Source of the DNA: Microbacterium esteraromaticum
Lineage (GTDB): Bacteria > Actinomycetota > Actinomycetes > Actinomycetales > Microbacteriaceae
Assembly (NCBI RefSeq): GCF_028747645.1
Contig: NZ_CP118100.1
Span: 3,100,001 to 3,164,000, forward strand
DNA: 64,000 nucleotides
Direction: 5' to 3'
The notes below the pieces were generated by a model. It saw only the letters and a program-made list of their open reading frames with translations, was not told the origin of the DNA and made no database searches. The position numbers and the translations under genes were made by a program. Below are positions 27,633-43,818 of this stretch, one piece after another. Position 1 is the first letter of the stretch. Each line of letters begins with the position of its first letter.

Positions 27633-27738
27633 GCGGGTGAAGTGGGGTCTGAAGCGCCCTGGGTTTGCTGGAGGCTCCTAGCCTTGGCCTCCGTTGCATC
27701 GAAGAGGTCGGCCTGATGGGCATGTCGACGGGTACGAC

Positions 27739-28089
27739 TCAGCACATATCACATCTGCCCGAGGCGGGTAGCTTCAGCCCGCAGGTCGAGCATTGCCCCC
27801 ACTCTCGCTTCTCGGCTTTGCTCACGCTGTCGCCTGCTCGCGGCTTGTTCTCAGGGTGCGATACGCCCCACAGGTTGGTTCCGCGTCCGCTGCGCCAGCG
27901 GTCGACATCGCCGACACTACGAGTGATCTCTTCCTCAGATCTGACACCGTTGGAGTACCCGTAGCGGAGCTGGATGGCGTTGCCACCCTGAGAGCGCGTC
28001 ACCTTGATGTAGCCGCCTCGGTCGAAGTGGCCCTCCACGTCAATGCCGGTAGGCGGTAGATGGCGATGACGCTCAATTGCCAATCGCAT
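27739..28089 (-). CDS. Unknown 116-aa protein with C-terminal zinc knuckle, island tail gene
   Basis: Last gene of the defence operon. Start ATG 28089 is inside the upstream gene (17-nt overlap), which explains the absence of a separate ribosome-binding site. The sequence (MRLAIERHRHLPPTGIDVEG...) has a beta-rich middle (GGYIKVTRSQGGNAIQLRYG) and ends in a four-cysteine motif CSTCGLKLPASGRCDMC, likely a zinc knuckle. No family is recognised. The conserved coupling and the terminal zinc site suggest a small nucleic-acid-binding partner of the upstream 289-aa protein, which is inference. Confidence 0.55.
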   Translation of the reverse strand: MRLAIERHRHLPPTGIDVEGHFDRGGYIKVTRSQGGNAIQLRYGYSNGVRSEEEITRSVGDVDRWRSGRGTNLWGVSHPENKPRAGDSVSKAEKREWGQCSTCGLKLPASGRCDMC

Positions 28090-28942
28090 GGAATCGATGG
28101 CGTCCCGAGAACCAAAGGCCCGTGACCCAGGACCGGCGATAGGTTCCGAGGAAGCCGATCGACTTGACGAACACGTCGACCCGCCAGCTCGAGCCGTCGG
28201 CGAGGTCTGGAAGGCGGCTTCCGAGGTCAGCGAGCGAGGCGTACCAGCCATCCAAGTGTTCAGCCACAAGCGTCGCCGTCCGACGCTGGCGATCGACGCC
28301 CAGGAGTCGCGAACTCGGTGATGCGCAGTCATTTCCGAACACTCGCGGGCCCGAGGGAGCGCCAGCGTGGTAGCCGCCCCACAGATGCATCGGGTCGGCG
28401 CCTCCAGTCCATACTCTGTCCCGCGGTGTCCGGCTAAGCGCACTGGCCAGCCCGCTTGAAAGGGAGATTGGGGTGAGGTCCGGCCTCAGCGCCCACGGCC
28501 TCAGGGGAGTGAGCGCATCATTCGGTGAGACATCCATCCGCTCAAGGACCCAGGCCAGGTACCCCAAGAGAGTCTCGTCGCTGAGCCAGGTGCCTCGGAT
28601 GAGGTTCAGCCGGGGGTCATCCTCGGGCCAGGCGTTCTCGTAGCACCAGGCAAGCCCCTTGTCGTGACGCACCCAGCCGAACGAATAGGTAAGGAATGAC
28701 TGCAGCGCGGTGTAGTACGCCAATGCCTGACGGTGACGACGGTCCCAATTCTCATACCCATCCGGAATCGACTCGGGTGATGCGGGCATGACACGGGGGC
28801 CGTCGACGGCTGACAGGCAGAGATAGGGCATGCCGAGGCCCCAGAGCCACGGGTCGTCGACGCCCGAGGGGACCTCGAGGCGCCGAGTGTCGCGCTGCCA
28901 ATCGAACCCAGCTTCCGAGCCCACCACGACCGCCTCCTTCAC
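28073..28942 (-). CDS. Unknown 289-aa protein coupled to hsdR
   Basis: Starts at GTG 28942 with a GTGA overlap of the hsdR stop. It is a soluble, Trp/Tyr-rich protein (MKEAVVVGSEAGFDWQRDTR..., HRQALAYYTALQSFLTYSFGW, RPDLTPISLSSGLASALSRTP). No membrane segment, signal or known catalytic motif is visible. Base composition and codon use look less GC-rich than the flanking chromosomal genes, as in much of the island. Given the coupling it probably belongs functionally with the restriction genes; no function is claimed. Confidence 0.6.
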   Translation of the reverse strand: MKEAVVVGSEAGFDWQRDTRRLEVPSGVDDPWLWGLGMPYLCLSAVDGPRVMPASPESIPDGYENWDRRHRQALAYYTALQSFLTYSFGWVRHDKGLAWCYENAWPEDDPRLNLIRGTWLSDETLLGYLAWVLERMDVSPNDALTPLRPWALRPDLTPISLSSGLASALSRTPRDRVWTGGADPMHLWGGYHAGAPSGPRVFGNDCASPSSRLLGVDRQRRTATLVAEHLDGWYASLADLGSRLPDLADGSSWRVDVFVKSIGFLGTYRRSWVTGLWFSGRHRFHAIGN

Positions 28943-31900
28943 CTGCGCCGCTCATCCGCGTACCGCGGCGCCATGGATTCCATCTGCTCCATGACCAACT
29001 TGATCGCCTCGGACTGCTTGTCCGGTGGGTATTTGTACTTCACCAGCAGTCGCTTGATCGATGAGCGCAGCTTCGCGCGCACATCATCGCGCACGGTCCA
29101 GTCGGTGCGTACGTCGCGTCGCATGACGGCGACGAGGTCGCGCGCGATCTGCGCGAGCACGTCGCCGCCCTGTACGTCGACGGCTGATTCGTTCGTCGCA
29201 ACGGCGTCGTAGAACGCCAGTTCGTCGCTCGACAACGGTGGCGAGAACGTCGATCCGCGCGAGGCTTCGGCTGCAACGTCCTTCGCGAGCTCGACGAGTT
29301 CGGCGATGACCTCGGCTGATGTGAGCTGTTGGTTCGTGTAGCGGTTCATGATCTCGGCGATTCGTTCCGAGAAGGCGCGCTGTCGAACGAGGTTCCCTCG
29401 GGTGGCTGCGGATCCGGCATCCGTCAGTGACTTGCGCAACGCTTCGATCGCGAGGTGCGCGTTCGGCGCCTCCTGCGCCTTGATGAGGAACTCGGAACCC
29501 AGGTCATCCAGCGATAGCCGAGGAAGCCCGGCGGCCTCGTAGATGTCGACGACGTCTCCGGGGGCGATCGATTCGGCGACGAGGGTTCCCAAGAGCCGCG
29601 AGATCTCTTCGGGGATCGGTTCGTCGCGGGATTGGCGCTCGGCGGCGTCGAACTTCGCCATCCACACCCGCACCTCTTCGTAGAAGGCGATCTCGTCGTG
29701 CAACTCGGCGAGTCCTTCGCGGCCCGATGCGAGCGCCCATGCTCGTGCCAGCCGGCCCGTGGCGGCTCGGTAGCGCGACGCCAGACGTTCGGATCCGAGT
29801 TCTTCGGCATTGAGCGGGTTCGTGGCGTCTCGCAGGTAGTTGGTGACGGTCGTCGCGGCGGTTCGCCATGCCCGCGATCCACCTTGCGCGGCGATCGCAC
29901 GCCAGTCGCATTCGGCGAGCATGTCGCGGATCTGCGCGACCAGTTCGGTCGCGATTCCGACCGCCTCGTCGACATCGCGTCCGATCGGCTTGTTCTGCTG
30001 GTCTGAGACCGTGTACTCCGACAGCGCTTTGGCGAGGTTGTCGGCCAACGGCGCGTACGCGACGAGGAGGCCATCCTGTTTGCCGCGGAACGTGCGGTTC
30101 ACTCGCGCCAGAGTCTGCATGAGCAGTGCGCCCTTCAGGGGCCGGTCGAGGTAGAGGGTGTGCAGGGGCGGCGCGTCGAAGCCGGTGAGCATCATGTCTT
30201 TGACGATCACGAGCTCAAGCTCGTCGGATGCGTCTTTGAGTCGCGTCTTGATCGCTTTGTTCTCAGACTCTCGACGCACGTGCTCGCTGATCGGCGGCTG
30301 ATCCGACGCCGACCCCGAATAGACGACCTTGATCCGTCCGGAGTCGAGTGCGTCCGAGTGCCAGTCGGGACGCAGCTCGACGATCGCCGCGTACAGGCGT
30401 GCGCAGATCTCGCGTGTGCCTCCGACGATGAGCGCCTTTCCCGGCGATTCGAGGAACGGTTTCATCCGGTCTCGGCGCTCTTCCCAGTGGGCGACGAGGT
30501 CGGCGGCGAGTCGTTCGATTCGTTCGGGTGCACCGTAGACGGCGTTGACGACGGCGACGGATGCTTCAAGTCGGGCCCGTTCGGTGTCGTCAAGGCCGGT
30601 GGTGTACTCGTCCGCGGCGCGGTCGATGTCTTCGTCGCTCGCGCCGTCGGCCAGAGACACCTTGATCAGTCGTGGTTCGAAGTACACCGGTACGGTGGCG
30701 CCGTCGTCGACGGCACGGGTGAGGTCGTAGATGTCGATGTAGTCGCCGAAGACGGCGCGGGTGTCGCGTTCGGCGAACGAGATCGGGGTTCCGGTGAACG
30801 CGATGAGTGTTGCGTTGGGTAGGGCGTCGCGCAGGTGGCGTGCGTAGCCGTCGAGGTCGTCGTAGTGGCTGCGGTGGGCTTCGTCGACGACGACGATGAC
30901 GTTGCGTCGGTCGGTGAGAAGCGGATGCTGGCGGCCGGCCTGCTTCTCGGTTTCGCTGAGTCCGAACTTCTGCAGTGTGGTGAAGTAGATGCCGCCGGTC
31001 ACGCGGTTGCTGAGCTCGTCGCGCAGCTGCGCGCGCTCACGCACCTGCATGGGTTTCTCTGCCAGCAGCAGGCTCTGGTCGAAGGTCTGGAACAGTTGAC
31101 CGTCCAGTTCGGTGCGGTCGGTGACGACGATCACGGTGGGGTTCTTGAGCTTCGGATGCCGCGAGACGAGGTTCGCGTACAGTTCCATCTCCATCGACTT
31201 GCCCGACCCCTGGGTGTGCCACACCACACCGGCTTTGCCGTTGGTCTCGACCGCTTGCACGGTCGATCCGACGGCTTTGGTCACGGCGAAGTACTGGTGG
31301 GGTTTGGCGATGCGTTTGGTGAGGCCGTCGGCGTTTTCGTCAAACGCGGTGAAGTTGCGCACGAGCTGCAGGAATCGTTCTTGGTTGAACAATCCGCCGA
31401 GGGCGTCATCGAGCGGTTGGTAGTCGATCCCGTTTTCGACGCGCGGCTGGGTGAGCGGTGCGCCGTCGTCGTCGACGTTCCAGGGTGCGAAGTGGTTGAG
31501 CGGGGTGAAGGGGGTGCCGTACTTCGCTTCGAGGCCGTCGCTGGCGAGGGTGAGCACACAGAACCGGAATGCCATCGGGAACTCGCGCAGGTAGGTCTGC
31601 AGCTGGGCGTGCGCGGGCGCGACGCCGGTGGATGCTGATCCTGCGCGCTTCAGTTCGGTGATGACCAGCGGCATTCCGTTGACGAACAGGACGACGTCGA
31701 GGCGCCGGTGCAGGTCGCCCTGTCGTACGGTCAGTTGGTTGGCGGCAAGCCAGTCGTTCTGCGAGGGGTCTGCGCTGAGCAGTCGAAGGCGCGGGTTCTG
31801 TTCGATGCCGTCGGCGTCGATGTAGCTGAGCGGGTAGCCGCCGACGAGGTACTGGTGGATTCGGTGGTTCTCGGTGATCGCATCCTGCGATTTCGGTGAT

Positions 31901-32121
31901 GCGATTTCGGCAAGCGCCTGCTGAAGGTACTCCCCCGGCACTCCCGGGTTGAGTCGACGGAGAGCTTCGAGCAGCCGGGGCCGGATGAGCAGATCGTCCC
32001 ACGTGTCGCGTTCACCGGTGCCCGGTGCGATCTGTTCGCCGGCGAGCGTGCGCCATCCGAGCGGCTCGGCGAGCGTGTCGAGGGCGTCCTGTTCCCAGTC
32101 GGCTTCGGTGAGTCTTGTCAC
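28939..32121 (-). CDS. hsdR: Type I restriction enzyme, R subunit (HsdR)
   Basis: A 1060-residue ATP-dependent translocase/endonuclease that cuts unmodified DNA in complex with HsdM and HsdS. Endonuclease core: D142 (RLDVVLFVNG) and ELK 156-158. SF2 helicase motifs: Walker A TQGSGKS (303-309), DEAH (413-416), then FTGTPISF and motif VI region NRTFRGKQDG. The C-terminal part is the helical HsdM-contact region. Start GTG 32121 overlaps the Fic stop (GTGA). It is separated from hsdS by 6.6 kb of accessory genes and fic, an unusual layout for a type I locus. Confidence 0.92.
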   Translation of the reverse strand: MTRLTEADWEQDALDTLAEPLGWRTLAGEQIAPGTGERDTWDDLLIRPRLLEALRRLNPGVPGEYLQQALAEIASPKSQDAITENHRIHQYLVGGYPLSYIDADGIEQNPRLRLLSADPSQNDWLAANQLTVRQGDLHRRLDVVLFVNGMPLVITELKRAGSASTGVAPAHAQLQTYLREFPMAFRFCVLTLASDGLEAKYGTPFTPLNHFAPWNVDDDGAPLTQPRVENGIDYQPLDDALGGLFNQERFLQLVRNFTAFDENADGLTKRIAKPHQYFAVTKAVGSTVQAVETNGKAGVVWHTQGSGKSMEMELYANLVSRHPKLKNPTVIVVTDRTELDGQLFQTFDQSLLLAEKPMQVRERAQLRDELSNRVTGGIYFTTLQKFGLSETEKQAGRQHPLLTDRRNVIVVVDEAHRSHYDDLDGYARHLRDALPNATLIAFTGTPISFAERDTRAVFGDYIDIYDLTRAVDDGATVPVYFEPRLIKVSLADGASDEDIDRAADEYTTGLDDTERARLEASVAVVNAVYGAPERIERLAADLVAHWEERRDRMKPFLESPGKALIVGGTREICARLYAAIVELRPDWHSDALDSGRIKVVYSGSASDQPPISEHVRRESENKAIKTRLKDASDELELVIVKDMMLTGFDAPPLHTLYLDRPLKGALLMQTLARVNRTFRGKQDGLLVAYAPLADNLAKALSEYTVSDQQNKPIGRDVDEAVGIATELVAQIRDMLAECDWRAIAAQGGSRAWRTAATTVTNYLRDATNPLNAEELGSERLASRYRAATGRLARAWALASGREGLAELHDEIAFYEEVRVWMAKFDAAERQSRDEPIPEEISRLLGTLVAESIAPGDVVDIYEAAGLPRLSLDDLGSEFLIKAQEAPNAHLAIEALRKSLTDAGSAATRGNLVRQRAFSERIAEIMNRYTNQQLTSAEVIAELVELAKDVAAEASRGSTFSPPLSSDELAFYDAVATNESAVDVQGGDVLAQIARDLVAVMRRDVRTDWTVRDDVRAKLRSSIKRLLVKYKYPPDKQSEAIKLVMEQMESMAPRYADERRR

Positions 32122-33299
32122 TTCGTGTCCTCCTCGTCGAAGTCAGCTCCATCGGTCACGGCAGCCCAGACTTCCTTCGCCAGCCACCGCTCTTTGCCCC
32201 CGCGTCCCCACCGGCCCACCGAGGTGACCCATCCACGGGCTTCGGCCTTGTGGATGAGTTTGGAGGCTCCGGGTTGCGACAGTCCGGCGGCATCCATGAT
32301 CGTCGACACTGTGATCACGGGGTTCCGGAACACGGCGTCGATGAGTGCGGGCAACGATGAGCGCTCTGTTCGCGCCTGCGTTCGGTAGGTCTCGCGAAGC
32401 GCGAGCAACGCTCTGATGCGCGCGGAACTCCGCGCGGCGGCGTCCTCGACCGCCGCGCAGAAGAACATCACCCACTCTTCGATCTCGCCGCGCTCGCGCA
32501 CCGCCTGCAGTCGTTGGTAGTACTCGGGGCGGTGGGATTCGAAGTACCCGGAGATGTGCAGCACGGGAGCCGGAAGTACGCCCTCGTTCATCAGTTGGAA
32601 TCCGATGAGTAGCCGGCCGATCCGTCCGTTGCCGTCGAGGAAGGGATGGATCGTCTCGAACTGGTAGTGCGTTAGTGCCGCACGAACCACGGCGGGCATG
32701 GTCGACGGGTCGTTGGCGAAGTGTTCCCAGTCATCCAGGAGGGCCCCGAGTTCACTGGGCAGGGGCGGGATGAACTTCGCCGTCTCGGGTCTGGCGTTCG
32801 GCGAACCGATCCAGACGGGTGAACGGCGAAGGTCGCCCGGGAACTTCTCTTCACCTCTGGTGCCGGTCAGCAGCGTCTCGTGGAGGGCGCAGAAGAAGCA
32901 CTGCGTGAAGGGCCAGGTCTCGAGCAGAGTGATCCCCTGGGTCGCCGCCTTGAGGTAGTTGCTGACCTCACGAAGGTTCTCGTTCTCGACGAGCACGTCG
33001 TCGTTCGCCGAAGACAGCACCTCGCTGAGTGATGCTTCGGTTCCTTCGATGCGCGAGCTCGCAAGGGCTTCCTGTGCCATCGATGGTCCGAGCAGAAGCT
33101 CGGGATCGTTGACCAGTAGCGCGAAGCCGGACAACTGCCCGAGGGCCGTGCTTGCTCGCGCGACTGCCGCGACCGTGTCTGCTTCGAGCGGGAGTTGACG
33201 TGGGATGCTGGCCGGCAGAAAGTACGGGTGAGGCCAGGGCCCGATCGGGTCTTTCTTGATCTCACCGAAACGCGAGCTGGTGAAGTCAGTAGCTCGCAT
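32118..33299 (-). CDS. Fic-family protein with inhibitory motif and winged-helix C-terminus
   Basis: A 393-residue Fic AMP-transferase-like protein. The Fic motif HPFLDGNGRIGR starts at H218. An N-terminal inhibitory motif S-x-x-x-E-G (SSRIEGTE, 81-88) makes it class II, so it is probably self-inhibited. The C-terminal 100 residues look like a winged helix (NPVITVSTIMDAAGLSQPGASKLIHKAEARGW). It is coupled to hsdR (GTGA) and a 27-bp dyad lies 55 nt upstream, so autorepression is plausible. In type I loci such proteins often regulate or poison the host; that role is inferred. Confidence 0.88.
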   Translation of the reverse strand: MRATDFTSSRFGEIKKDPIGPWPHPYFLPASIPRQLPLEADTVAAVARASTALGQLSGFALLVNDPELLLGPSMAQEALASSRIEGTEASLSEVLSSANDDVLVENENLREVSNYLKAATQGITLLETWPFTQCFFCALHETLLTGTRGEEKFPGDLRRSPVWIGSPNARPETAKFIPPLPSELGALLDDWEHFANDPSTMPAVVRAALTHYQFETIHPFLDGNGRIGRLLIGFQLMNEGVLPAPVLHISGYFESHRPEYYQRLQAVRERGEIEEWVMFFCAAVEDAAARSSARIRALLALRETYRTQARTERSSLPALIDAVFRNPVITVSTIMDAAGLSQPGASKLIHKAEARGWVTSVGRWGRGGKERWLAKEVWAAVTDGADFDEEDTK

Positions 33300-33353
33300 C
33301 GATCACTCCTCCGCGTTTGTTCTCGGTCAGCATATAACTCAGCAGCCTTGCCA

Positions 33354-33380
33354 GTTATAGGTTCATGGAGAACTTATAAC
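33354..33380. promoter_or_regulatory. 27-bp dyad, probable operator of the fic-hsdR unit
   Basis: GTTATAGGTTC (33354-33364) and GAACTTATAAC (33370-33380) are inverted repeats with a single mismatched pair and a 5-nt spacer. A third TATAACT lies at 33333. Placed 55 nt before the fic start, in an AT-rich patch, it looks like an operator or promoter for fic-hsdR, with the Fic C-terminal winged helix a candidate binder. Confidence 0.5.
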
Positions 33381-33435
33381 CCACCCGCCCGGTCTTTACC
33401 CGAGCACTGCTTCACAATCTCCGACGCTTGCACTA

Positions 33436-34746
33436 CTACTTCGGCTCGTCTTCGCCCGGGACGTCTGCGTCTTTGCGGAGCAGCTTCTCGCCCAGGCCGC
33501 TCAGCAGTTTTCCGGTGCCCACTCGGGCATTGTCGGCCGTCTCGCCCGCGAAGCGTCCTACTGCTTGGGCGGCGCCGGCACCTGCCGTGACGACGCCGTC
33601 TCGGGCATCGCCGGCCGCGTCTCGCCATCGCTTCGCCTCGATGGCCTCACGTTCTTGACCGATGCTGAGCCGCGAATGGAACTCTGAGACATCCGCGCCG
33701 ATCGCGTTGCTCGAACGGATAACCCGCGGTGCTGCGGTGGGCGAGAGCAGCACCTTGGCGTTGGCTCGTGTGGCCGCGGCATCCATTCGCGCCAAGAGCG
33801 ACAATGTCGATCGGGCAATGAGGGCTTTGCGGTTGTCGCGTGCTGCGCGCAGGCCGCGACGGTGACGCTCAACTTCGCTGGGATCGTCGGGAGATTCGTC
33901 GAGTACGCGGTCGATTTCGAGTACGGCCGTCGCGTCTTGCAGCTGGAAGCAGCGCGCGAGCACGGCGAGCCATTCCTGCACGACGGTTTCGGCGTCTCTT
34001 GCGAGGTTGGCGAGGTCGCTCATTTTGGCGGTTCGTTCGAGTTTCTCGGCGAGCGCGTCGAGTTGGCGCAGCGCGTATGCCTGGGTGCTGGCGACGGTTG
34101 CGGTGGTTGCCTGCACTTTCGACCAGGTGGTCTCTGAGACGAAGCCGACCTGCTCGCGGATGGTCATTGCTTCTTCGATAACGAACTCCACACCGATCAT
34201 GTCGGCGAGGGCGGCGTCTTTCTGCGCACGCAGCACGTCGTCGACCTTGGCGTCGATCTTCGCGAGGTAGTCGATGATCTCGTCCATGGTCTGCTGCATG
34301 GCCATCTGCGCCATGATCCCTGCAGCGCCGGTGAGGATCGCCGGGTTGGTGAGCATCTTGCCCGGTGTGCGCACGAATTCGAGGATGTGCTTGGTCTTGC
34401 CGTTCTTCATCACGATGGCGCGGGCGACGCCGGATGACGAGCCCTTCATCGGCGGCAGGTCGCCGAGTGCCTTCGCGGACTTCTCAGTGAGTTTGATCCA
34501 CCGACCGGAGTTCTCGGCGATCTGCGATCCAGCCTGGGTGATGCCGGACGCGGCGTTCATCTTCGTGCCGAGTTTCTGCAATGCCAGCTCGCGAGACTCG
34601 AGACCCCGCGATGTGAGGAACTGTTCGACCGCCGCGGGCGGGCCGATCACCGCGACGCCGTCGCCGTCGGTGATCAGTTCGAGTTCGTGGTCGAGCAGAG
34701 TGAGCTCATCGCTGGCGAATGTGGATGCGTTGTTGTCAGTGCTCAT
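33436..34746 (-). CDS. Unknown helical protein, island accessory gene
   Basis: A 436-residue protein starting at ATG 34746 with a 4-nt overlap of the preceding DUF4230-like gene. It is predicted almost entirely helical with long amphipathic stretches (FVIEEAMTIREQVGFVSETTW..., RQLDALAEKLERTAKMSDLANL). A short central hydrophobic Gly/Ala segment follows TNPAILTGAAGIMAQM, reminiscent of a membrane-inserting hairpin. The C-terminal 40 residues are charged. No enzyme motif is seen. A membrane-active effector of the two-gene module is one possibility; no function is claimed. Confidence 0.6.
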   Translation of the reverse strand: MSTDNNASTFASDELTLLDHELELITDGDGVAVIGPPAAVEQFLTSRGLESRELALQKLGTKMNAASGITQAGSQIAENSGRWIKLTEKSAKALGDLPPMKGSSSGVARAIVMKNGKTKHILEFVRTPGKMLTNPAILTGAAGIMAQMAMQQTMDEIIDYLAKIDAKVDDVLRAQKDAALADMIGVEFVIEEAMTIREQVGFVSETTWSKVQATTATVASTQAYALRQLDALAEKLERTAKMSDLANLARDAETVVQEWLAVLARCFQLQDATAVLEIDRVLDESPDDPSEVERHRRGLRAARDNRKALIARSTLSLLARMDAAATRANAKVLLSPTAAPRVIRSSNAIGADVSEFHSRLSIGQEREAIEAKRWRDAAGDARDGVVTAGAGAAQAVGRFAGETADNARVGTGKLLSGLGEKLLRKDADVPGEDEPK

Positions 34747-35408
34747 TCTGCGAACTCGAATTCTAGGATGATGGACGGGTCAATTGCCTCGACGATGCGG
34801 GTATAGAACGTCTCAGCCTGGTCTTCGAGTACCGGCCGGAACCCGTCGATGTGCTGTTCGATAAAGCTCTCCGAGAGCAGCTTCTCGAAGACTTCCGTCT
34901 TGTCGATCTCGGGTGTGGTCCAGCTGAGGAGGCCGTTCTTCTCGTCCGCGACGCTCAGGTCTGGGTTCGCATATCCGAGGTAGATGAACTCGGGGATGGA
35001 GACCACGTAGGTGTCATCGCCGGTCTGGCGAATCTCGACGTCTTTGCCTTCGATGCCGAACTTGGCATCGTATTCGTACCGCACGAGCACGGAACGTTCG
35101 CTGCCCGGGAGAGTGAACAGGTTCCAGTCACCAATCGCTAGCCTGAGCCCCTCGCCGTTCTCCTCATTGACCTCGGTCATGCCTGCGGTGACAAGAATCA
35201 CTTGTTCCTCGCCCTTTATCGATCGAATGACCTGCGTATCCCGTGATTCCGCAGCCCCAAAGAACTTGCCCACAGCAACACCTGCAATCGCTGCACCGCC
35301 GATGAGCAGCAGTACCATCACCACAAGTAGCACCTTCGCCCACGTGGGTGTGGTCTTGCCCGACTTGGGGACGATCGGCGACGTCGCCGGTGTCGTAGGA
35401 GCGGTCAT
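34743..35408 (-). CDS. Single-span membrane protein, DUF4230-like
   Basis: A 221-residue protein: Thr/Pro-rich cytoplasmic N-terminus (about 1-22), one membrane helix (WAKVLLVVMVLLLIGGAAIA...) and a large outside domain. The pattern EEQVILVTAGMTEVNEENG, then NLFTLPGSERSVLVRYEYDAKFGIEG, GDDTYVVSIPEFIYLG resembles DUF4230 beta-sheet proteins; this is tentative. Coupled to the next helical protein, with which it may form a sensor-effector pair. It is preceded by a 96-nt gap that may hold a promoter. Confidence 0.55.
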   Translation of the reverse strand: MTAPTTPATSPIVPKSGKTTPTWAKVLLVVMVLLLIGGAAIAGVAVGKFFGAAESRDTQVIRSIKGEEQVILVTAGMTEVNEENGEGLRLAIGDWNLFTLPGSERSVLVRYEYDAKFGIEGKDVEIRQTGDDTYVVSIPEFIYLGYANPDLSVADEKNGLLSWTTPEIDKTEVFEKLLSESFIEQHIDGFRPVLEDQAETFYTRIVEAIDPSIILEFEFAE

Positions 35409-35504
35409 GCGGTGGCTCGTTTCTGGTGAAGGTAACGGTGTACTGCTGAATCTAGTGGTTGGTCTCGGAGTGGTTGTGATCGCACGGGCGCCCGCGTATC
35501 AGTG

Positions 35505-36722
35505 CTAGCGCAAGAACTCGTGCAACCAGTTCTCGCCGACGATCGGGATGCCGTAGTCGCGCGCCTTCTTCGCCTTGCCGGAGAGTGAGTCTGGATCGGC
35601 GGCGACGACGAGCGCGACTTTCTTGGTCACGGTCGGATGGCAAGTGAATCCGCGGTCTTGCAGTGCGGCTTCCCACTCCGAGCGCGGACGCGTCATCTCA
35701 CCGGTGAGCACGATGAGTGCGCCTGGTTGCAAGGTGAACGCCTCATGGGTGGGTTCTTCATCACCTGCGGGTGCGACGTCATCCGTTGCTGCGGCGATGG
35801 TCTCATCATCCATCTCGAGCAGCATGCCCACGGTGGCGAGGTCGATCTTCTCGTCTTCGGTGAGGATGCCGTCTGCCCAGGCACGACGTTCAAGCGTGAC
35901 GAAGTAGTCGTGGTGCAGACCCTCGACGCTCGCCCGGTCAAGGCCGAGCTCGGTGGCGACATCGGCGAGTTGTGCCCTCTCGCTCGGCGACAGGAAGCCG
36001 TCGAGCAGACAGCGGTCGAGCAGCGCCAGGTACTGCGCAGCCGCACCGTCGACGGTCTCTCGCACGGCCTCGGTCGAGATGCGTTCGAGAAAGCTGGGCG
36101 CTGTGAGTGATGCTTCAGAGCGCGGCTTCGGCACGACACCCGTGCGAGACCCGGAGGGGTATCGGTACGAACGGCCGGCGTGGGCGGTCTGCTGCCAGTA
36201 GTCTTCCCAGCCCGGCCAGACGGTGCTGGTGCGCTGGTAGTGCGCGAGAAGCTGAGCGGCAGCGTGGGAGTCGGCGCCTGCACTGTGAGCCCGGGTGAGG
36301 TCGATGGCGTGCGTGTCGCAGGCGTGAGCGAGTGATGCGGATGCCCCAAGCCCGAAGCTCGCGCCGAGCCCCATCGTGCACACGGTCGGGATGCCGCCGT
36401 CGAGCCAGTACCCGGCACGTTCGAACTCGGCTTCCAGGAACCGCAGGTCGAAGGGCGCGTTGTGGGCCGCGAACACGCGCCCGCGCAACAGGTCAGCGAA
36501 CTCGGCGGCGATGTCGCTGAAGAGAGGTGCGTCGAGCACGTCGGCAGCGCGGATGCCGTGGATGCGCTGCGGCCCGAGATCGCGCTCCGGGTTGATCAGC
36601 GTCTCCCACCGGTGCGAGATCGTGCCGTCATCCTCGACGTGGGTGACGCCGATCTCGACGACGCGGTGGTGATATGAGGGCAGGATACCCGTGGTCTCAA
36701 AGTCGACGACAGCGAACGCCAT
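35505..36722 (-). CDS. DnaQ-like 3'-5' exonuclease with C-terminal BRCT domain
   Basis: A 405-residue protein. The DEDDh exonuclease spans about 1-170, with D7 and E9 in VVDFETTG, HNAPFD, and the later AHSAGADSHAAAQLL. A central helical region is of TerB-like character (SPSERAQLADVATELGLDR..., LTEDEKIDLATVGMLLEMD). A BRCT domain occupies the last 80 residues (GALIVLTGEMTRPRSEWEAALQ, IVGENWLHEF). Related DnaQ-BRCT proteins are often called DNA polymerase III epsilon-like; in an island a nuclease that trims phage or host DNA is equally possible. Directly coupled to the nucleotidase gene. Confidence 0.82.
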   Translation of the reverse strand: MAFAVVDFETTGILPSYHHRVVEIGVTHVEDDGTISHRWETLINPERDLGPQRIHGIRAADVLDAPLFSDIAAEFADLLRGRVFAAHNAPFDLRFLEAEFERAGYWLDGGIPTVCTMGLGASFGLGASASLAHACDTHAIDLTRAHSAGADSHAAAQLLAHYQRTSTVWPGWEDYWQQTAHAGRSYRYPSGSRTGVVPKPRSEASLTAPSFLERISTEAVRETVDGAAAQYLALLDRCLLDGFLSPSERAQLADVATELGLDRASVEGLHHDYFVTLERRAWADGILTEDEKIDLATVGMLLEMDDETIAAATDDVAPAGDEEPTHEAFTLQPGALIVLTGEMTRPRSEWEAALQDRGFTCHPTVTKKVALVVAADPDSLSGKAKKARDYGIPIVGENWLHEFLR

Positions 36723-37711
36723 TACGCACCCGCCTCGGGCATCTCCGGAGCCGTGCTGATGAGCCGGGAGACTGACTCACCTTGCGGCCGTTCATTCGCC
36801 ACGCCGTAAGGGATGAGCACGCTCGCGGCATGCTTCGACGTCGACTCGAGATGACTCTGCTGGTCGTCGAAGTAGATGTCAGGACGCATCACCTCAAGCA
36901 CGGTTCCTTTGTCGATCCCACCGAGGAAGAACGCGTCGTTCACTGTCACGCCCCACTCAGAAAGCGTGTTCACGGCGCGCTCGTGCGCGGGAGCATTTCT
37001 TGCAGTCACGATCGAGACGCGCAACCTCGGAGCATAAGTCTTGTCCGAGACTGTGCGCTCACGCTCGATTTCCTGGATCATGTTCAGATCTCGGAGGAAC
37101 TCGCTGAGCGGTCCGTTCTCAAGCGGCACAGTTCGCTTGGCAACCTCGTTCTCTTGGAAAGCGGAGAGGCCGCCATCACTTTGGTAGATGCGCTCCGCTT
37201 CGTCGCTCGCGACAACGCCATCAAAGTCCAGAGCAACCCGCACCGTCTCGTCCTCGGAGCCCCTGCCCGACGAGTCCACCACGAGTCCGGCGGGAAAGCC
37301 GTCGGACATCGCAGCACGCACGCTCGACTCCTGACCGGACAGAAATAGCGACATTGAAAAAGCACCGATGTACGTGTAGGGCGCTTCACCTTGCGTGAAG
37401 ACGGCGCGGCTGATGGCGAGGCCATGCTGCTCAACCGACCGCATGACCCGCAGGCCCGTAGATGGGTCATTCCGCGAGAGGATGATGACCTCGACGAGCG
37501 GGTCGCCAGGCCTCAAGTTGTTCAACCCCAGAAGCTTGCGGATGAACCCAAAGGCAGCTCCCGGGTTGAGCGTGACGTCGATGTTGTCGGCCTGGTACTT
37601 GCGATACGCGACTTCTCCATGCTCGGTGAAGAACGCGTCAGATTCTGCGAGATCGAACAATGCGCTGGACGCAACGCCGATGACGAGTCGGTTATCGAGG
37701 GTGTATGCCAT
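36722..37711 (-). CDS. Cytosolic 5'-nucleotidase I-like (HAD) protein
   Basis: A 329-residue protein resembling the NT5C1/5'-nucleotidase family (PF06189 type). It has an N-terminal region typical of that family (NRLVIGVASSALFDLAESD...) and the HAD nucleophile motif VALDFDGVVASD (D162, D164). The later motifs TARNAPAHERAV and GGIDKGTVLEVMRPDIYFDDQQSH complete a HAD-type site. It would hydrolyse nucleoside monophosphates such as AMP. It follows a 22-codon ORF ending at its ATG. In a restriction island, nucleotide depletion or control of a Fic/restriction effect is inference. Confidence 0.78.
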   Translation of the reverse strand: MAYTLDNRLVIGVASSALFDLAESDAFFTEHGEVAYRKYQADNIDVTLNPGAAFGFIRKLLGLNNLRPGDPLVEVIILSRNDPSTGLRVMRSVEQHGLAISRAVFTQGEAPYTYIGAFSMSLFLSGQESSVRAAMSDGFPAGLVVDSSGRGSEDETVRVALDFDGVVASDEAERIYQSDGGLSAFQENEVAKRTVPLENGPLSEFLRDLNMIQEIERERTVSDKTYAPRLRVSIVTARNAPAHERAVNTLSEWGVTVNDAFFLGGIDKGTVLEVMRPDIYFDDQQSHLESTSKHAASVLIPYGVANERPQGESVSRLISTAPEMPEAGA

Positions 37712-37779
37712 CAGGCACCTGGCTCGGATGCGACGCGCTCGGCATCACAGACGGTGAGCACGGTGTTCTCGGTGGTCAT
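37711..37779 (-). CDS. Possible 22-residue leader ORF of the nucleotidase gene
   Basis: ATG 37779 to TGA 37711 encodes MTTENTVLTVCDAERVASEP then GA. The stop overlaps the nucleotidase start by one base (TGATG), the arrangement expected for translational coupling. Upstream is a GA-rich sequence (GAGAGAGAG) rather than a perfect Shine-Dalgarno. It may be a short cistron that primes nucleotidase translation; codon use alone cannot confirm it. Confidence 0.35.
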   Translation of the reverse strand: MTTENTVLTVCDAERVASEPGA

Positions 37780-37860
37780 GCGGGCTCTCTCTCATGATGC
37801 CGAACGCCAACGTCGCGTTCGTTCGATAGTGGCGTGATTGCCGGGGGGAGCATGCAACCT

Positions 37861-38730
37861 TCATATAGACCGCCCGATACCGCCGGCGCCGAGCGGACGC
37901 TGATTCCGACTACGAAGCTGGTGGTCGAAAGACGCGGCGACGCGCTGACCGGTGACGGTCGGTGTTGCGGCTGTGAGGGCGGCGACGATGGCAGAAGACG
38001 TGACAAGCGGATCACACGTCGCGACCGTCTCGCCCTTCTTCGATGCCGCGGCGAGCGCACGCGCGGATTCGCGCCCCAGAGATTCGCTAGGCGAGTACTC
38101 TCGTTCGATTCGGTAGCTGAAGACCAGGGCTATTGCGAGCAGGATCGGTGCCGCCACGGGCATCAGGTAGAGGGCAAGCACGCGGAACCCGAACATGTAC
38201 ATTGAGCCCTTCGCGTAGAAGAAGCTCCACTCACGCTCGTCTCCCATGTCCGCGTCGTCGCGTGGCAAGACACTGAGCAGCACGGAGACCGCGAACGGCA
38301 CTGCCGCGGCCAGTGCAATCCAGACGAGGGGCAACATCGTGCCGTGGATCTCCACCGCGATTGCGGCGCTCAACAAAGCGAGCACACGCAGCCCGGTGAG
38401 CCGGAAGCTTCGAAGTGACAGCGTCGATAGAACTGCTGAGGCGATGACACAGATCGGCAGGAGCGGCGCGCGGTTCGGATCGGTCAACCACTCGGGTATC
38501 GCAACCAACCACGCGGCGGGCTCGCCCCCGAAGGCCTTGATGACATCCGCAAACCAAGTAATCGGACCCGACTCGGGCAGGATCATGGCGTTCGACACGA
38601 CCCATGCCGTCCACAGCCAGGCAGCCAGCCACGCAATGACCATCCATTCAACGAAACGATCCCAGCTGAGGCCAAGCAGATGGTGAACTTCCTCACGCCA
38701 GGCTTTGCTGGCAACGGCGGCCTCGTTCAT
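37861..38730 (-). CDS. Multi-span membrane protein of the island, unknown
   Basis: A 289-residue protein with about five or six hydrophobic helices (about 30-50, 60-80, 90-110, 115-150, 180-205) between a soluble N-terminus (VASKAWREEVHHLLGLSW) and a C-terminal region with polar, basic character (SFDHQLRSRNQRPLG). It starts at ATG 38730 (TGATG overlap with hsdS; a GTG one codon upstream is possible). It has no signal, channel or enzyme motif. It is the first accessory gene inserted after hsdS; a membrane effector or sensor role is only a guess. Confidence 0.6.
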   Translation of the reverse strand: MNEAAVASKAWREEVHHLLGLSWDRFVEWMVIAWLAAWLWTAWVVSNAMILPESGPITWFADVIKAFGGEPAAWLVAIPEWLTDPNRAPLLPICVIASAVLSTLSLRSFRLTGLRVLALLSAAIAVEIHGTMLPLVWIALAAAVPFAVSVLLSVLPRDDADMGDEREWSFFYAKGSMYMFGFRVLALYLMPVAAPILLAIALVFSYRIEREYSPSESLGRESARALAAASKKGETVATCDPLVTSSAIVAALTAATPTVTGQRVAASFDHQLRSRNQRPLGAGGIGRSI

Positions 38731-39857
38731 CACAGCCCCGCTTCCTGAGCAACCTTTTGCGCATCGCGGACGCGGAGCTTGCCGGACATGAGTTTCGGGA
38801 GCAGCGCGTCGCGGGTCGCGGCGAGGGTAGCGTTCTCGGCACGGACTGCATCCTGGCTTGCAGCCAGCGCGCGAAGGGTCTGCCCGACACGATTCGCCCG
38901 TTCACCGCTGGGAACTCTGATACGAGCGCGCCCAAGTTCGACTCGGCTGAGTTCAGTCTGCCCCGTGCTGCCCTCACCCAGCGCTTCGATGTCAGCTTCG
39001 ATTGCGAGAACTGCCTGCCCGATGACCGTCGGGTCGCTCACGTTGGGGTCAGGTCTGACGATCGTAATGTGGGAGTCGACGGTTGCTTGACCGGGGAGCG
39101 TCCAGCGCGCAACGCGCCCGAGGGTTCCCTGGCCGGTTGAGTTGACCAAGATATCGCCTACTGCGAGGACCTTCTCTGCCCTCACCTTCGAGTCGTCTGT
39201 CCATCGAGACGGCCCCAGGGATACCACTTGATCCCGCACGCACTTTTGATTAAGTACCCGGGTGCCTTCTCCATCAGGCAAATAGCGCGGCGTGATCCCG
39301 CGTACGAGCACGACCGAAGCTTCGTCGACCGTCAGCTCGCGGGCGTCGTCGCGGACTGCGGCGCGCAACTCAAGCCGGGCGACGGCGGCGGCAGTGGCGG
39401 CGAGGGCGGTGTTGGCGGTGATCTTGTCGTCGAGGGCACCCAGCACCTCGGCGATTGCCTGTTGCTCGGGGAGGGGTGGAACGTGTGCGCGAAGTCCCGC
39501 GAACGACTCCCGAGTCGTTGACGGTATAGCTGATCCGGAGTCCAACCCGTTGATATCCGCCAACTGCAGTGAGTAGTACGCCCAGCGCATGTCTAGGGGT
39601 CGCTTCGGAGCGATGTAAAAAGCAGTGTCGATGACCCAGAAGTCCTGCGCTGCGTAGTGGACGCCGCGATAGGCTCCCTTGCGGCCAACGACCACACCGG
39701 GCCCCTTCGTCTGATGAACGTCCGTGAAGCCAACCGGACCATTTGTGCCATAGACGGCCACGGATCCGCGCCCATCCCGGTAATCGCGTAGCGCCTTGCC
39801 GTACCGGAGTTCGACTACCTCTCCCCAGGTCGTGAGATCCCAGCCCACGGGTGTCAC
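38730..39857 (-). CDS. hsdS: Type I restriction specificity subunit (HsdS)
   Basis: A 375-residue DNA-recognition subunit with two target-recognition domains. The first begins at MTPVGWDLTTWGEVVELRYG and runs to the central coiled coil with LPEQQAIAEVLGALDDKI; the second starts near DEASVVLVRGITPRYLPDGE. A second conserved helix ends with ALLPKLMSGKLRV. Start GTG 39857 overlaps the hsdM stop. The recognition sequence cannot be read from the protein. The following membrane-protein gene starts at its stop. Confidence 0.92.
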   Translation of the reverse strand: MTPVGWDLTTWGEVVELRYGKALRDYRDGRGSVAVYGTNGPVGFTDVHQTKGPGVVVGRKGAYRGVHYAAQDFWVIDTAFYIAPKRPLDMRWAYYSLQLADINGLDSGSAIPSTTRESFAGLRAHVPPLPEQQAIAEVLGALDDKITANTALAATAAAVARLELRAAVRDDARELTVDEASVVLVRGITPRYLPDGEGTRVLNQKCVRDQVVSLGPSRWTDDSKVRAEKVLAVGDILVNSTGQGTLGRVARWTLPGQATVDSHITIVRPDPNVSDPTVIGQAVLAIEADIEALGEGSTGQTELSRVELGRARIRVPSGERANRVGQTLRALAASQDAVRAENATLAATRDALLPKLMSGKLRVRDAQKVAQEAGL

Positions 39858-41632
39858 GAGATACGCCGCAACTGCTCGCGCACCGAATCCGCCAGGCGCG
39901 CGGATTCGGCGAACTGGGACTCCAGCTCCGCCCGCAGACGAGCGAGCTTTTCGTCGATTGGCTCACCGTCGTCCTCGACCTCGGCGGCGCCGACGTAGCG
40001 GCCGGGAGTCAGGGCGTAGTCCGCGGCCTTGATCTCGGCGAGGGTGGCGGAGTAACAGAAGCCGGGGATGTCGGCGTAACCGGTGCGTTTCGTCTCGCTT
40101 CGCTCGCTCAACGACCGGGAGTTGGGATCCTCGGCGTAACCGGCGCGTTTCGTCTCGCTTCGCTCGCTCAACGACCGGGGGTTGAGCGTTTCATCTCGCT
40201 GCGCTCGCTCAACGACCGGGGAGGCGGGGTCAGTAGGCGTTTCGTCTCGCTGCGCTCGCGCAACGACCGGGGTGTCACGCCAGGCGTGGAACGTGTCGGC
40301 GATCTTGGCGATGTCTTCATCCGACAGCGCGCGCTCGGCGCGGTCGACCATGTGGCCGAGGTTGCGGGCGTCGATGAACAGCACCTCACCGGCACGCTTG
40401 CCCTTGTCCTTCGCGAAGAACCACACGCACACCGGAATCCCGGTCGAACGGAACAGCTGCGTCGGCAATGCCACCATGCACGAGACCAGATCCGACTCGA
40501 CGATCTCGGCACGGATCTTGCCCTCGCCGCCCGAGTTCGACGACATCGACCCGTTCGCCATCACCACACCGGCCTGCCCGCCCGGGGCGAGCTTCGACAG
40601 GATGTGCTGAATCCACGCATAGTTCGCGTTGCCCGCCGGTGGCACGCCGAAACGCCACCGCGGGTCGTCTTCGTTGCGCACCCAGTCCTTGATGTTGAAC
40701 GGCGGGTTCGACATCACGAAATCCGCCTGCAGGTCGGGGTGCAAATCGCGAGCAAACGTATCGCCCCACCGCGGCGCCAGATTGCCGTTCAGACCATGGA
40801 TCGCCAGGTTCATCTTCGCCAGACGCCAGGTGCGCTCGTTGAGCTCCTGCCCGTACACCGAGATGTCGCTGCCTTCACCGTGGTGCGCATCGATGAACTT
40901 CTCGGCCTGCACGAACATGCCACCCGAACCACACGCCGGGTCGTACACCCGGCCATGGGTCGGCTGCAGCAGCTCGACCAGCACCCGCACCACGCTCGGC
41001 GGCGTGAAGAACTCGCCACCCCGCTTGCCTTCAGCCCGCGCGAACTTCTCGAGGAAGTACTCGTACACCTCCCCCAGCAGGTCACGCGCACGCCTACCCT
41101 CCGAGCCACCCTGCCCCTGCGCCGCGAACCGCGCCGAGTTGAACAGGTCGACGAGCTCACCCAACCGTCGCTGATCGACGTTGTCGCGGTTGAAGATCCG
41201 CGGCAGCGTGCCCGACAGCTGTGGATTCGCCTGCATGACAGCATCCATCGCCTCGTCGATCAACGCACCCACCGGCTTCTCGGGCGCATCCATCGACGCA
41301 CCCAGCCCCTTCGCGTTCTCTGCCAAGAACGACCAGCGAGCGTTCGCCGGCACCCAGAACACGCCGCGCCCGGTGTACTCATCGATGTCGTCGATGAGCT
41401 CGGCGATCTGCTCGTCGTCGTACCCATCGGCAGTCAGTTCCGTGCGGATGCCGACACAGCGCTCATCGAAGGCATCCGACACATACTTCAGGAACACGAG
41501 ACCAAGAATGACGTCCTTGTACTGCGAGGCGTCCATCGACCCGCGCAGCTTGTCGGCCGCCTTCCAGAGCGTGTCCTTCAGCTCTTTCATGCTCGACGGA
41601 GCGGTCGGTGCGGCCTTCGGTGTGCGGGGCAT
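39854..41632 (-). CDS. hsdM: Type I restriction modification methylase (HsdM) with repeat-derived insertion
   Basis: Adenine-N6 methyltransferase subunit of 592 residues. HsdM N-terminal helical domain about 15-165 (LRGSMDASQYKDVILGLVFL); SAM motif DPACGSGG 231-238; catalytic NPPF 309-312; TSNSGG and VALPTQLFRSTG follow. Between about residues 454 and 516 lies an extra segment, PVVARAQRDET..., PVVERAQRDET..., RSLSERSETKR (twice), made by four in-frame repeats of a dispersed DNA element. The C-terminal helical domain with LTPGRYVGAAEVEDDG resumes afterwards. Coupled to hsdS; 8 nt after the preceding gene. Confidence 0.92.
   Translation of the reverse strand: MPRTPKAAPTAPSSMKELKDTLWKAADKLRGSMDASQYKDVILGLVFLKYVSDAFDERCVGIRTELTADGYDDEQIAELIDDIDEYTGRGVFWVPANARWSFLAENAKGLGASMDAPEKPVGALIDEAMDAVMQANPQLSGTLPRIFNRDNVDQRRLGELVDLFNSARFAAQGQGGSEGRRARDLLGEVYEYFLEKFARAEGKRGGEFFTPPSVVRVLVELLQPTHGRVYDPACGSGGMFVQAEKFIDAHHGEGSDISVYGQELNERTWRLAKMNLAIHGLNGNLAPRWGDTFARDLHPDLQADFVMSNPPFNIKDWVRNEDDPRWRFGVPPAGNANYAWIQHILSKLAPGGQAGVVMANGSMSSNSGGEGKIRAEIVESDLVSCMVALPTQLFRSTGIPVCVWFFAKDKGKRAGEVLFIDARNLGHMVDRAERALSDEDIAKIADTFHAWRDTPVVARAQRDETPTDPASPVVERAQRDETLNPRSLSERSETKRAGYAEDPNSRSLSERSETKRTGYADIPGFCYSATLAEIKAADYALTPGRYVGAAEVEDDGEPIDEKLARLRAELESQFAESARLADSVREQLRRIS
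40087..40272. repeat. Four copies of a GTTTCGTCTCGC element in frame within hsdM
   Basis: Copies begin at 40087, 40147, 40188 and 40239. Each reads GTTTCGTCTCGCTTCGCTCG (T/G variants) followed by CTCAACGACCGG. The first two form a 60-bp tandem unit. All copies lie inside the coding sequence, preserve frame, and encode the RSLSERSETKR/VARAQRDET-like segments. They fall between the methylase core and the C-terminal helical domain. Confidence 0.85.
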
Positions 41633-41640
41633 GTGCGTCC

Positions 41641-43623
41641 TTACTGCGTGGATGCCGCATCAGCGGCGTCGTTCTCTTCAATGATGGTGACAGCTCCCGA
41701 CGTCGCACCCGCGACGATCAGGTCGGCATAGACGTTCAGGCGTGTTGCGCGGGCCTCAAGGTCGGCGCGGGCGGCGGCGATCTCGGCGAGCGCACGCCGC
41801 AACGGCGCGACGCTGTGTGGTGCGACGCGGCGCAGCATCCACCGCTTCCACGCACCGGGGCCCGCGGTCGCGCCCGCGATGTCGGCGGCGATCACCTCGG
41901 GCACGAGGCCGCCCGGGTCCGCTGCGGTGACCCGCAGCACCCGCGCCGGCGCGACGACGACCTTCGACCCCTCGGCGTCGACCCAGGCCGCCGAGGTCGG
42001 TCCCGTGCGGAAGACAACGTCACCCGGCCGCGTGAGAGACGCGCGCGGATACTGCGTCGCGAACGCGAGCTGATCGACACGCGTGCCACCGATCGCTCCG
42101 GGGGCATCGAGATCGGATGCCGTCACCACGACCAATCCGTCGACCCCAAGCATTTCCGGGCTCAGCCGCGTGCCCTTGACGACCCTGAGATGCCCGTCAT
42201 GAACCAGATCTGCGACGGATGCCGGCGATGGCGCGCTGTGTGCGGTCGTGCTCCACGGGACCCCAGCGACATCCGCGCGAACCGCGTCGGCGGCAGTATC
42301 GAGAAGCGCAGGGATATCAGCAGGAGACGGTCCGGCGGCTCGCCGCGGGCCTGCCGCCGCGATGAGCGGCCCGGTGCGGGCCACCAGTGACGCGGTACGC
42401 GCAAAGCGCGCGAACCGGAACGCATGCGCGCGCACATCGCGGCCACTGCCCATGCTCGCCACGACATCCGAGACGAGATCCGCCCGTGTCGCCGGAGTCA
42501 GCGGCGTCGCGCTCAGGTCGGCGACAACGGCGATGCGGTCTGCAATGGGGACGTCACCCATCGGCGCGCCCAGCATCCACACCGCGAGAGCCTCTCTGGA
42601 TGCCGTCTCAACCAACCCCGGCATCAGACGGGCGATGCCACGCACACGTCCGGAACGCAAGATATCGGCACGCACGCGTTCCTCGGCCGGGCCGAGCGCA
42701 TCGCTCAGGATTCGAGCGGGACCGATGACGACGGCCGCATCGGCATCGCGCAAGCCGAGTGAAACCTCATCCACGGCGAGCAGCGCCGACATCGTGTCTT
42801 CGCCCGGATGCCGCGGCACCCGGGCGATCGTGACGGACCGCTGCGACGGCGGAGCCTCGTTGGCCTCTGAGACCCAGTGCCCTTCGACGAGCAGCCGGCG
42901 ACGCACACGGCGAGCGGTGACGGAGTTCGGGACGGTAAGGGCAACCGCATCGCCCAGTGACTCGGCGAGCGCTGACGAAAGCTCGGCATCCGCACCATCG
43001 AATGTGACGGTGGCTGGGCCGCCGCCGACCAGCGACGTCGCTGACTCCACGACGAGAGCGATCGCCTCGTGCACAAGCGGCCCCGTCGAGGCGGCCATCC
43101 GACGCGCGGATGCGTGGCGACGATGCACCAACGCCAGTGCTGCCGACGGCGAGTATGCGGCGTCGATCAGGTTCTCGGCGTATGCCAGCCACGGCGCACC
43201 ACGATCCACGTGTGCGTTGATCTCGGCGCGGCACGACAGATCGCGCGGATCGGCCGTCGCCGCAGCGTTTCGATGCTCATCACCGGCCAGCGTTTCGAGT
43301 GTGCCGAGCTGGGCGTAGAGCACGATGAGCGATTCCAGTTCGGCGACGGCTGCGTCGTCGCCGAAGGCGAATCCCAGCGGCGTCGCCTGGGCTGCAGCAT
43401 CCGCCCGCGCATCCGGGTTGTTGCCGTGTGCAGTGCGCACAAGCCAGTCGGCGACGTGCGATGCGTCGTAAAGCATCCGCCCGGCGTCTTCGGCGACCCC
43501 CTGCGGGAACGGGTCGTCACCCTCAGCGAAACGGGAACGCCACATCGACACCACCGGACGACGCACATCGGCCAGCCGGGCGACGCCGGCCAGGTCGATG
43601 AGAAGCGGTGCGGTGGTGGGCAT
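41641..43623 (-). CDS. Degenerate N6-methylase-like protein with N-terminal HTH, first island gene
   Basis: A 660-residue protein starting at ATG 43623. Residues 1-65 resemble a MerR-type helix-turn-helix (LIDLAGVARLADVRRPVVSM, WRSRFAEGDDPFP). The middle has the order and spacing of the N6-methylase fold, including the strand/helix RLMPGLVETASREALAVWML that in HsdM follows the catalytic motif. Neither DPACGSG nor NPPF/Y is present. The C-terminal part (about 480-650) resembles a target-recognition domain plus coiled coil (RRALAEIAAARADLEARATR). It is probably a DNA-binding, catalytically inactive paralogue or regulator in the type I locus. Confidence 0.6.
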   Translation of the reverse strand: MPTTAPLLIDLAGVARLADVRRPVVSMWRSRFAEGDDPFPQGVAEDAGRMLYDASHVADWLVRTAHGNNPDARADAAAQATPLGFAFGDDAAVAELESLIVLYAQLGTLETLAGDEHRNAAATADPRDLSCRAEINAHVDRGAPWLAYAENLIDAAYSPSAALALVHRRHASARRMAASTGPLVHEAIALVVESATSLVGGGPATVTFDGADAELSSALAESLGDAVALTVPNSVTARRVRRRLLVEGHWVSEANEAPPSQRSVTIARVPRHPGEDTMSALLAVDEVSLGLRDADAAVVIGPARILSDALGPAEERVRADILRSGRVRGIARLMPGLVETASREALAVWMLGAPMGDVPIADRIAVVADLSATPLTPATRADLVSDVVASMGSGRDVRAHAFRFARFARTASLVARTGPLIAAAGPRRAAGPSPADIPALLDTAADAVRADVAGVPWSTTAHSAPSPASVADLVHDGHLRVVKGTRLSPEMLGVDGLVVVTASDLDAPGAIGGTRVDQLAFATQYPRASLTRPGDVVFRTGPTSAAWVDAEGSKVVVAPARVLRVTAADPGGLVPEVIAADIAGATAGPGAWKRWMLRRVAPHSVAPLRRALAEIAAARADLEARATRLNVYADLIVAGATSGAVTIIEENDAADAASTQ

Positions 43624-43749
43624 GAGGTCAATCTAGCCCCGCCTGAGCTTCTCGCTCACTTTTGTGCGATAAGGGGTCTTATCAGGATTGTGCGCGCAGG
43701 TTTTGGCGTTGAACTCCAAGATCGTTCCAGCGGCATGTCGCCGCTGTCG

Positions 43750-43787: not shown

Positions 43788-43818
43788 TCGGCCCCGCATC
43801 ACGCACCTGGAGGTAGTC

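Follow-up and report, generated by a model that had tools for sequence, protein, structure and literature searches.

Embedding of further genes in type I restriction systems is already known, and three cases, as described in the excerpts of their reports used here, stand closest to the locus under study. PrrC is embedded in the type I EcoprrI cluster and fires upon inhibition of restriction (PMC12707154); DarTG2 sits between hsdS and hsdR in a type I operon of enteropathogenic Escherichia coli (EPEC) that also carries RptR, a site called a potential recombination hotspot (PMC12255303); and the two co-acting genes of TgvAB are embedded in a type I operon on VPI-2 of Vibrio cholerae (PMC11411939). 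The locus considered here is a type I restriction operon of Microbacterium esteraromaticum, lying in a stretch of 64,000 bases (the window; positions 3100001-3164000 of the 3,197,365-base genome). Its genes lie on the minus strand (43623 to 28073) in the order g1-hsdM-hsdS-mem-nuc-dnaQ-d4230-HEL-fic-hsdR-g11. What is new in it is the pair formed by a DUF4230-like protein (d4230) and a helical protein (HEL), a small testable unit behind two families without an assigned role, namely HEL, which has over 3,000 relatives and bears no Pfam name, and the d4230 branch of DUF4230.

The pair resembles PrrC in being embedded in a type I operon, and a trigger by restriction inhibition is here only proposed; according to the excerpted account PrrC is a tRNA anticodon nuclease, whereas the unit in the window is a predicted membrane pair, and the ten window proteins scanned against Pfam and PADLOC gave no match to an anticodon nuclease of the PrrC/RloC type. 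With DarTG2 it shares the form of a two-gene unit between hsdS and hsdR, but DarTG2, in the same partial sense, is a DNA-targeting toxin-antitoxin system, and the EPEC operon has the small helical repressor RptR in front where the window has the 660-residue g1. TgvAB likewise comprises two genes housed within a type I operon, but is described in the excerpt as a GmrSD-like modification-dependent restriction system, and such domains were not found in the window.

The pair in the hsdS-hsdR slot and beyond

In the window d4230 (34743..35408) and HEL (33436..34746, 436 residues) overlap by 4 nt. A search for HsdR across 366 genomes of the genus recovered 42 at E<=1e-150, of which 30 (the window's included) belong to the same close lineage and 12 show 40-44% identity. 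The loci examined were 31 in number, comprising the window, L065-L093 and, from a different genus, L120; three are cut by contig ends and 28 are complete. All 28 complete loci hold non-hsd genes between hsdS and hsdR, in a gap of 1341-6685 bases (median 2527), and 29 gene families are inserted across them. The commonest is d4230, present in 21/28, followed by a GTPase-DUF697 protein (11/28), HEL (10/28), DnaQ-BRCT (4/28), Fic (3/28), and the nucleotidase and an EF-hand-like family, fam37 (2/28 each). Other inserts include AbiD, a YoeB/HigB-like toxin accompanied by an HTH-M78 protein, and a PIN protein; an OLD-type ATPase occurs in L093, one of the loci that a contig end truncates. A HipA_2-like/DUF3037 pair opposes the operon direction just before hsdR in L075 (12181-13880) and L081 (6190-7892; the L081 members were scanned), and also lies between hsdS and hsdR in L091. 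The hsdS-hsdR gap is thus a standing slot for defence cargo. The original prediction of a mobile island with cargo is borne out by these variable inserts, by the known defence families among them and by the absence of the locus from a conspecific genome (see below); a check of the relatives for a fixed gene order without mobility left that reading standing.

In the 21 complete loci with d4230 the gene is always followed by one of three partners, the GTPase-DUF697 protein in 11, HEL in eight and fam37 in two. As the pair is the sole insert in 12/28 complete loci, the shortest common form of the operon is g1-hsdM-hsdS-d4230-partner-hsdR. The recurrence of the arrangement in related genomes speaks against a chance origin. 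Seven complete loci are devoid of d4230, and two of these (L070, L087) nevertheless hold HEL; in L087 the place of d4230 ahead of HEL is taken by another protein, single-pass and coiled-coil-like (10796-11413), from which the membrane half of the pair may be exchangeable too.

Across the genus d4230 occurs at 42 places in 39/366 genomes. HEL is found within 500 bp of it at 19 of these places, the GTPase at 14, and fam37 is its neighbor at three further ones; at L093/G425 HEL lies one DnaQ gene beyond d4230, and at one place (L113) a d4230 fragment shares its stretch with fam37. Gene order in 30 further stretches, fetched for d4230 outside the restriction operon, indicates that the pair persists there, often without restriction genes. 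A family-level sample contained d4230 in 12/179 genomes and HEL in 28/179. Within the genus, d4230 and the close hsdR occur together in 23 genomes, 16 and 7 genomes hold one of the two, and 320 have neither (Fisher p 3e-20, uncorrected for relatedness).

A tree of 52 d4230 proteins, with two duplicate loci left out and L040 set to 'elsewhere' by hand, requires at least 13 changes of partner (counted over the 41 rows for which the partner is known) and 15 switches between the restriction operon and other contexts; 29 of the 52 genes lie outside a type I operon. Well-supported neighbors in this tree differ in their partner, as do L074 (fam37) and L076 (GTPase), or L078 (GTPase) and L079 (HEL), and in one case in both partner and context (L065 with HEL in the operon, L097 with the GTPase elsewhere). 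The partner labels are partly clustered (20 changes for four labels against 25.4 in shuffles, with 1/200 as low), and therefore exchange is frequent but not random. In a quick tree of 49 HELs the paired members cluster (4 changes against 16 in shuffles, 0/500 as low), which together with the d4230 tree indicates that a branch of HEL is fitted to d4230 while d4230 itself changes partner.

The d4230 family and its three partners

The original label of DUF4230-like holds by homology, in that a tblastn search links d4230 to plasmid genes annotated as DUF4230 (E 7e-12 for the gene of pIL6, which itself passes the Pfam cut-off with 28.6 bits against 27); by profile it fails for the window protein, for which Pfam yields no match even at E<=5. 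Three of the ten proteins scanned with d4230 match PF14014 weakly (E 0.013-0.14, at most 16.1 bits against the cut-off of 27). A hydropathy peak at residues 26-44 predicts a single-pass membrane protein, and the AlphaFold2 model (mean pLDDT, the model's confidence score, 78) has one membrane helix, then a domain rich in strands that includes a long helix; structural searches with this model gave no usable match. The positive N-terminus suggests that the domain sits outside the cytoplasm.

Among 72,556 plasmid records, relatives of the window d4230 were recovered in six and those of the Lactococcus DUF4230 protein in 13. On the Lactococcus plasmid pIL6 the order is hsdR-hsdM-hsdS-DUF4230-PIN_8, and on pLLE01E hsdS precedes the d4230 relative. 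A Paenarthrobacter record has an EcsC gene convergent to it, in two Enterococcus records an insertion element separates it from an AlwI-type system, and two Lactococcus records have it without any such neighbors. The Lactococcus relatives in L155 and L156 are annotated as 'phosphoribosylglycinamide synthetase', which is likely a misnaming.

HEL has at least 3,222 relatives at E<=0.001, with no Pfam domain among the 120 listed, and no sequence match among solved structures. Its AlphaFold2 model (pLDDT 72.7) comprises long helices over residues 135-402, much of the part before 135 being poorly confident, and its structural matches, with pore-forming folds considered, lie within the noise of helical bundles. 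The GTPase partner carries MMR_HSR1 and DUF697 domains in both of its scanned members, and by profile it borders on EngA, septins and immunity-related GTPases. Its match to the LeoBC model is weak (E 6e-10) and confined to the G-domain part; in the window, HEL stands in place of this GTPase. DynA is reportedly another membrane GTPase in defence. The third partner, fam37, displays a hydropathy peak and DxDGDG repeats. Profile comparison of HEL, the GTPase and fam37 revealed no kinship among them. Since the apolar stretches of the GTPase and fam37 exceed the hydropathy threshold, a guess is that the partners are membrane effectors; it is weakest for HEL, whose conserved apolar stretch near 130-155 stays below that threshold.

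Proposed role and competing explanations

The explanation that best covers the whole, and that we favor only tentatively, is that the locus is a polymorphic island with a slot for defence cargo in which d4230 and an exchangeable partner stand guard over restriction. In such a scheme d4230 would be the membrane-seated, constant half that holds the unit in the membrane, and the partner, here HEL, would be the variable effector or sensor. Once the restriction enzyme is blocked or overwhelmed, the pair would injure or remodel the membrane, or bring the cell to arrest, thereby acting as an inner line of defence within the restriction operon, in the manner of PrrC guarding EcoprrI, and the nucleotidase, DnaQ-BRCT and Fic would be independent extra cargo. 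The antiphage role, the link to restriction and the assignment of the sensing and acting halves are what we infer here from gene context. If a guard with a swappable effector were confirmed, membrane-acting units would be pluggable into a restriction operon like cartridges, and inspection of the genes between hsdS and hsdR would be a rule for finding more of them. A further-reaching version, which we regard as rather doubtful, would have d4230 and its swappable partner (perhaps also EcsC and PIN_8) be an undescribed immune unit and the lineage's default guard, and would add g1 to the lineage's core as a regulator or as a new, fourth subunit.

Several observations weigh against a guarding role. 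Neither d4230 nor HEL matches a PADLOC model at E<=0.01. At four of the 42 places in the genus d4230 has none of its three partners, and a further place holds a broken d4230 fragment. Only 20 of the 65 HEL places (in 61 genomes of the genus) and 14 of the 68 GTPase places (in 68 genomes) lie within 2 kb of d4230, so that the partners do not need d4230; it is d4230 that leans on its partner and not the reverse. Co-divergence of d4230 with HEL and the GTPase is weak (r 0.27 and 0.22) in Mantel tests, which here and below were run on identities and are inflated by shared ancestry. Where only the distant hsdR is present (12 genomes), d4230 is never adjacent to it; 11 of these genomes have no d4230, and in G539 it lies ~800 kb away. 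Type I genes do not adjoin the d4230 relatives on 5/7 of the plasmid records examined. Finally, a control with PF14014 over 168 genomes of the phylum gave 23 matches, and at none of the 20 loci fetched were the genes considered here nearby, the only window family seen being the query family itself, in two; as the profile misses the window's own d4230, this control speaks for other branches of DUF4230. Taken with the plasmid records, it follows that the link to defence belongs to this branch of d4230 and not to DUF4230 at large.

Some of the same observations would be explained by hitch-hiking: insertions in the gap would be tolerated, and the pair would be a mobile unit of two genes that serves some other function and has come to lie there by chance. 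The many d4230 genes outside type I operons, the 15 changes of context and the very mixed cargo would all fit such an explanation. We nonetheless consider it unlikely, given that the pair occupies 21/28 loci of one hsdR lineage and stands beside hsdR in none of the distant-hsdR genomes, and that d4230 distances track those of HsdR (Mantel r 0.43, p 0.001) and, to a lesser degree, HsdM (r 0.25, p 0.02). A different role within the operon, that of a membrane tether by which the pair would anchor the restriction complex to the membrane and so let it meet DNA at its entry, without any killing, would agree with the predicted membrane helix of d4230, the hydropathy peaks accompanying DUF697 in the GTPase and the near-constancy of d4230 in this hsdR lineage; the lack of kinship among the partners and the frequent occurrence of the pair without restriction genes make it improbable.

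The pair might also comprise a toxin and its immunity protein, one half being toxic and the other protective, and persist by addiction and not by defence. Its form as a coupled two-gene unit, the fast exchange of partners and its presence among toxin-antitoxin genes in some loci are in line with this, but HEL and the GTPase occur mostly without d4230 and some d4230 genes have no known partner; since both thus exist apart, neither half is obviously toxic alone, and the probability of this explanation is low. Least probable of all is a housekeeping role, in which DUF4230 with a GTPase or helical partner serves membrane or ribosome upkeep. It draws on a DUF4230 gene of Streptococcus mutans that adjoins the ribosome-assembly genes yqeI-yqeH-yqeG in the excerpted report (PMC13041782), and on the other-branch genes of the PF14014 control, but the patchy distribution of d4230, which is absent even from a conspecific genome, and the exchange of both partner and site point away from it. 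The possibly undescribed module of the original prediction narrows down to this pair, as the nucleotidase, DnaQ-BRCT and Fic have PADLOC models.

Core genes, known cargo and the island

The open reading frames, strand and gene order of the original prediction stood, as did the positions of the hsd genes and the Pfam identities of the nucleotidase, DnaQ-BRCT nuclease and Fic. The claim of one coupled operon with mostly overlapping junctions held for six of the ten junctions from g1 to g11, which overlap by 1-4 nt; the other four are gaps of 8, 149, 96 and 136 nt, of which the last three split the operon into the four blocks g1-hsdM-hsdS-mem, nuc-dnaQ, d4230-HEL and fic-hsdR-g11. The hsd genes appear intact by their domains and motifs: HsdM (39854..41632) has N6_Mtase (PF02384, E 5e-112) and HsdM_N (PF12161) domains with the N6-methylase motifs DPACGSG and NPPF, HsdS (38730..39857) has a target-recognition domain (PF01420, Methylase_S, E 1.6e-10), and HsdR (28939..32121) combines an N-terminal nuclease domain (HSDR_N) with a superfamily 2 motor (SWI2_SNF2, T1RH-like_C) and scores 791 bits against PADLOC PDLC03040.

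The first gene, g1 (41641..43623), encodes an orphan protein of 660 residues without a Pfam match, and is present in 26/28 complete loci. Its distances correlate with those of HsdM (Mantel r 0.63) and HsdR (0.71), within a range of 0.63-0.78 for the three proteins, whereas HsdS diverges apart from HsdM (r 0.08); g1 belongs to the co-inherited core of this type I lineage. The earlier view of g1 as a degenerate methylase finds no support, and g1 is not recognizable as an N6 DNA methylase, as none of 24 relatives (0/24) matched a methylase model in Pfam at E<=1, profile comparison with HsdM by hhalign reached E 0.37 only, and a search for an NPPF-type motif found none. A segment is weakly HsdS-like (E 0.0019, probability 14%). 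There are at least 187 relatives at E<=1e-5, with no Pfam domain among the 120 listed, and among the matches listed two bear the UniRef name 'DNA-binding protein'. By sequence reading only, the N-terminus resembles a helix-turn-helix protein, and because of this and its first position in the operon g1 may be the operon's regulator, like RptR in EPEC. Decaying copies of the operon include L077, with a shortened hsdM and no g1, and L091, with split g1 and split hsdR.

The embedded nucleotidase, DnaQ-BRCT and Fic are matched over most of their length by existing PADLOC models, and these proteins are hence known defence candidates, with nothing new about them save their shared position. The cN-I-like 5'-nucleotidase (36722..37711; PF06189, E 4e-118) matches PDLC04900 (PDC-S08, 431 bits) and the DEDDh exonuclease with a BRCT domain (35505..36722; PF00929, PF00533) PDLC05027 (PDC-S48, 493 bits). 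The Fic protein (32118..33299; PF02661, PF13784) matches PDLC03963 (SoFic, 323 bits), but against the NCBIfam SoFic equivalog NF046030 it scores 144.8 bits, below the curated cut-off of 550. It carries the motif HPFLDGNGRIGR and an N-terminal SSRIEG, which we take to be a motif of the inhibitory type. The PDC entries of PADLOC stem, according to the excerpt used, from a 'guilt-by-embedding' approach (PMC10855318).

The slot of the window also holds mem (37861..38733), a predicted multi-pass membrane protein of 290 residues by hydropathy, whose gene overlaps hsdS by 4 nt and was found in 1/28 complete loci, that of the window. Of the two genes expected after hsdR, g11 (28073..28942, 289 residues, 4-nt overlap with hsdR) was called by the gene finder with a low score, and the reading frame at 27739-28443, which overlaps g11 by 371 nt and was not called, is doubtful as a gene. 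Neither mem nor g11 has a family match in the profile libraries scanned. Elsewhere, one gene family follows hsdR in six loci (L065, L070, L072, L073, L075, L077), and its L075 member, the one scanned, has the architecture HEPN_Swt1-DUF4011-helicase, the candidate PDC-S37. Genes facing away from g1 recur upstream of it in L065-L091. They encode a TM2-domain protein (14 loci, of which one is a duplicate), a protein with weak likeness to DUF4352 (12 loci) and a DUF2130 protein (five loci), one member of each family having been scanned.

The type I locus is a polymorphic island. The conspecific genome G219 aligns with the window as far as 27637 (98%) and resumes at 45338 (97%), having in place of the intervening 17,700 bases (27638..45337) 636 bases that code for a DUF427 protein (E 2e-29). 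The exchanged segment thus contains g1 to g11 and extends beyond the limits first given for the locus to include a DUF5677 gene (44151-45281) between g1 and dnaB. As only L067 among the 29 stretches L065-L093, each of at most 20 kb, also holds dnaB, the type I system seems to occupy different sites in different species, without proof for each. The flanking dnaB (45334-47580, 748 residues) has an in-frame insertion of 834 bases (46030-46863), absent from the 469-residue DnaB of G219; Pfam shows no intein in it at E<=0.01, and we presume it to be intein-like by its HN-S end. Further along, repeated stretches of ~75-95 bases at 50840-51534 match several places of G219 at 76-80%, and a protein encoded at 6833-7876, with matches to Virulence_RhuM and Fic, represents a second Fic gene of the window.

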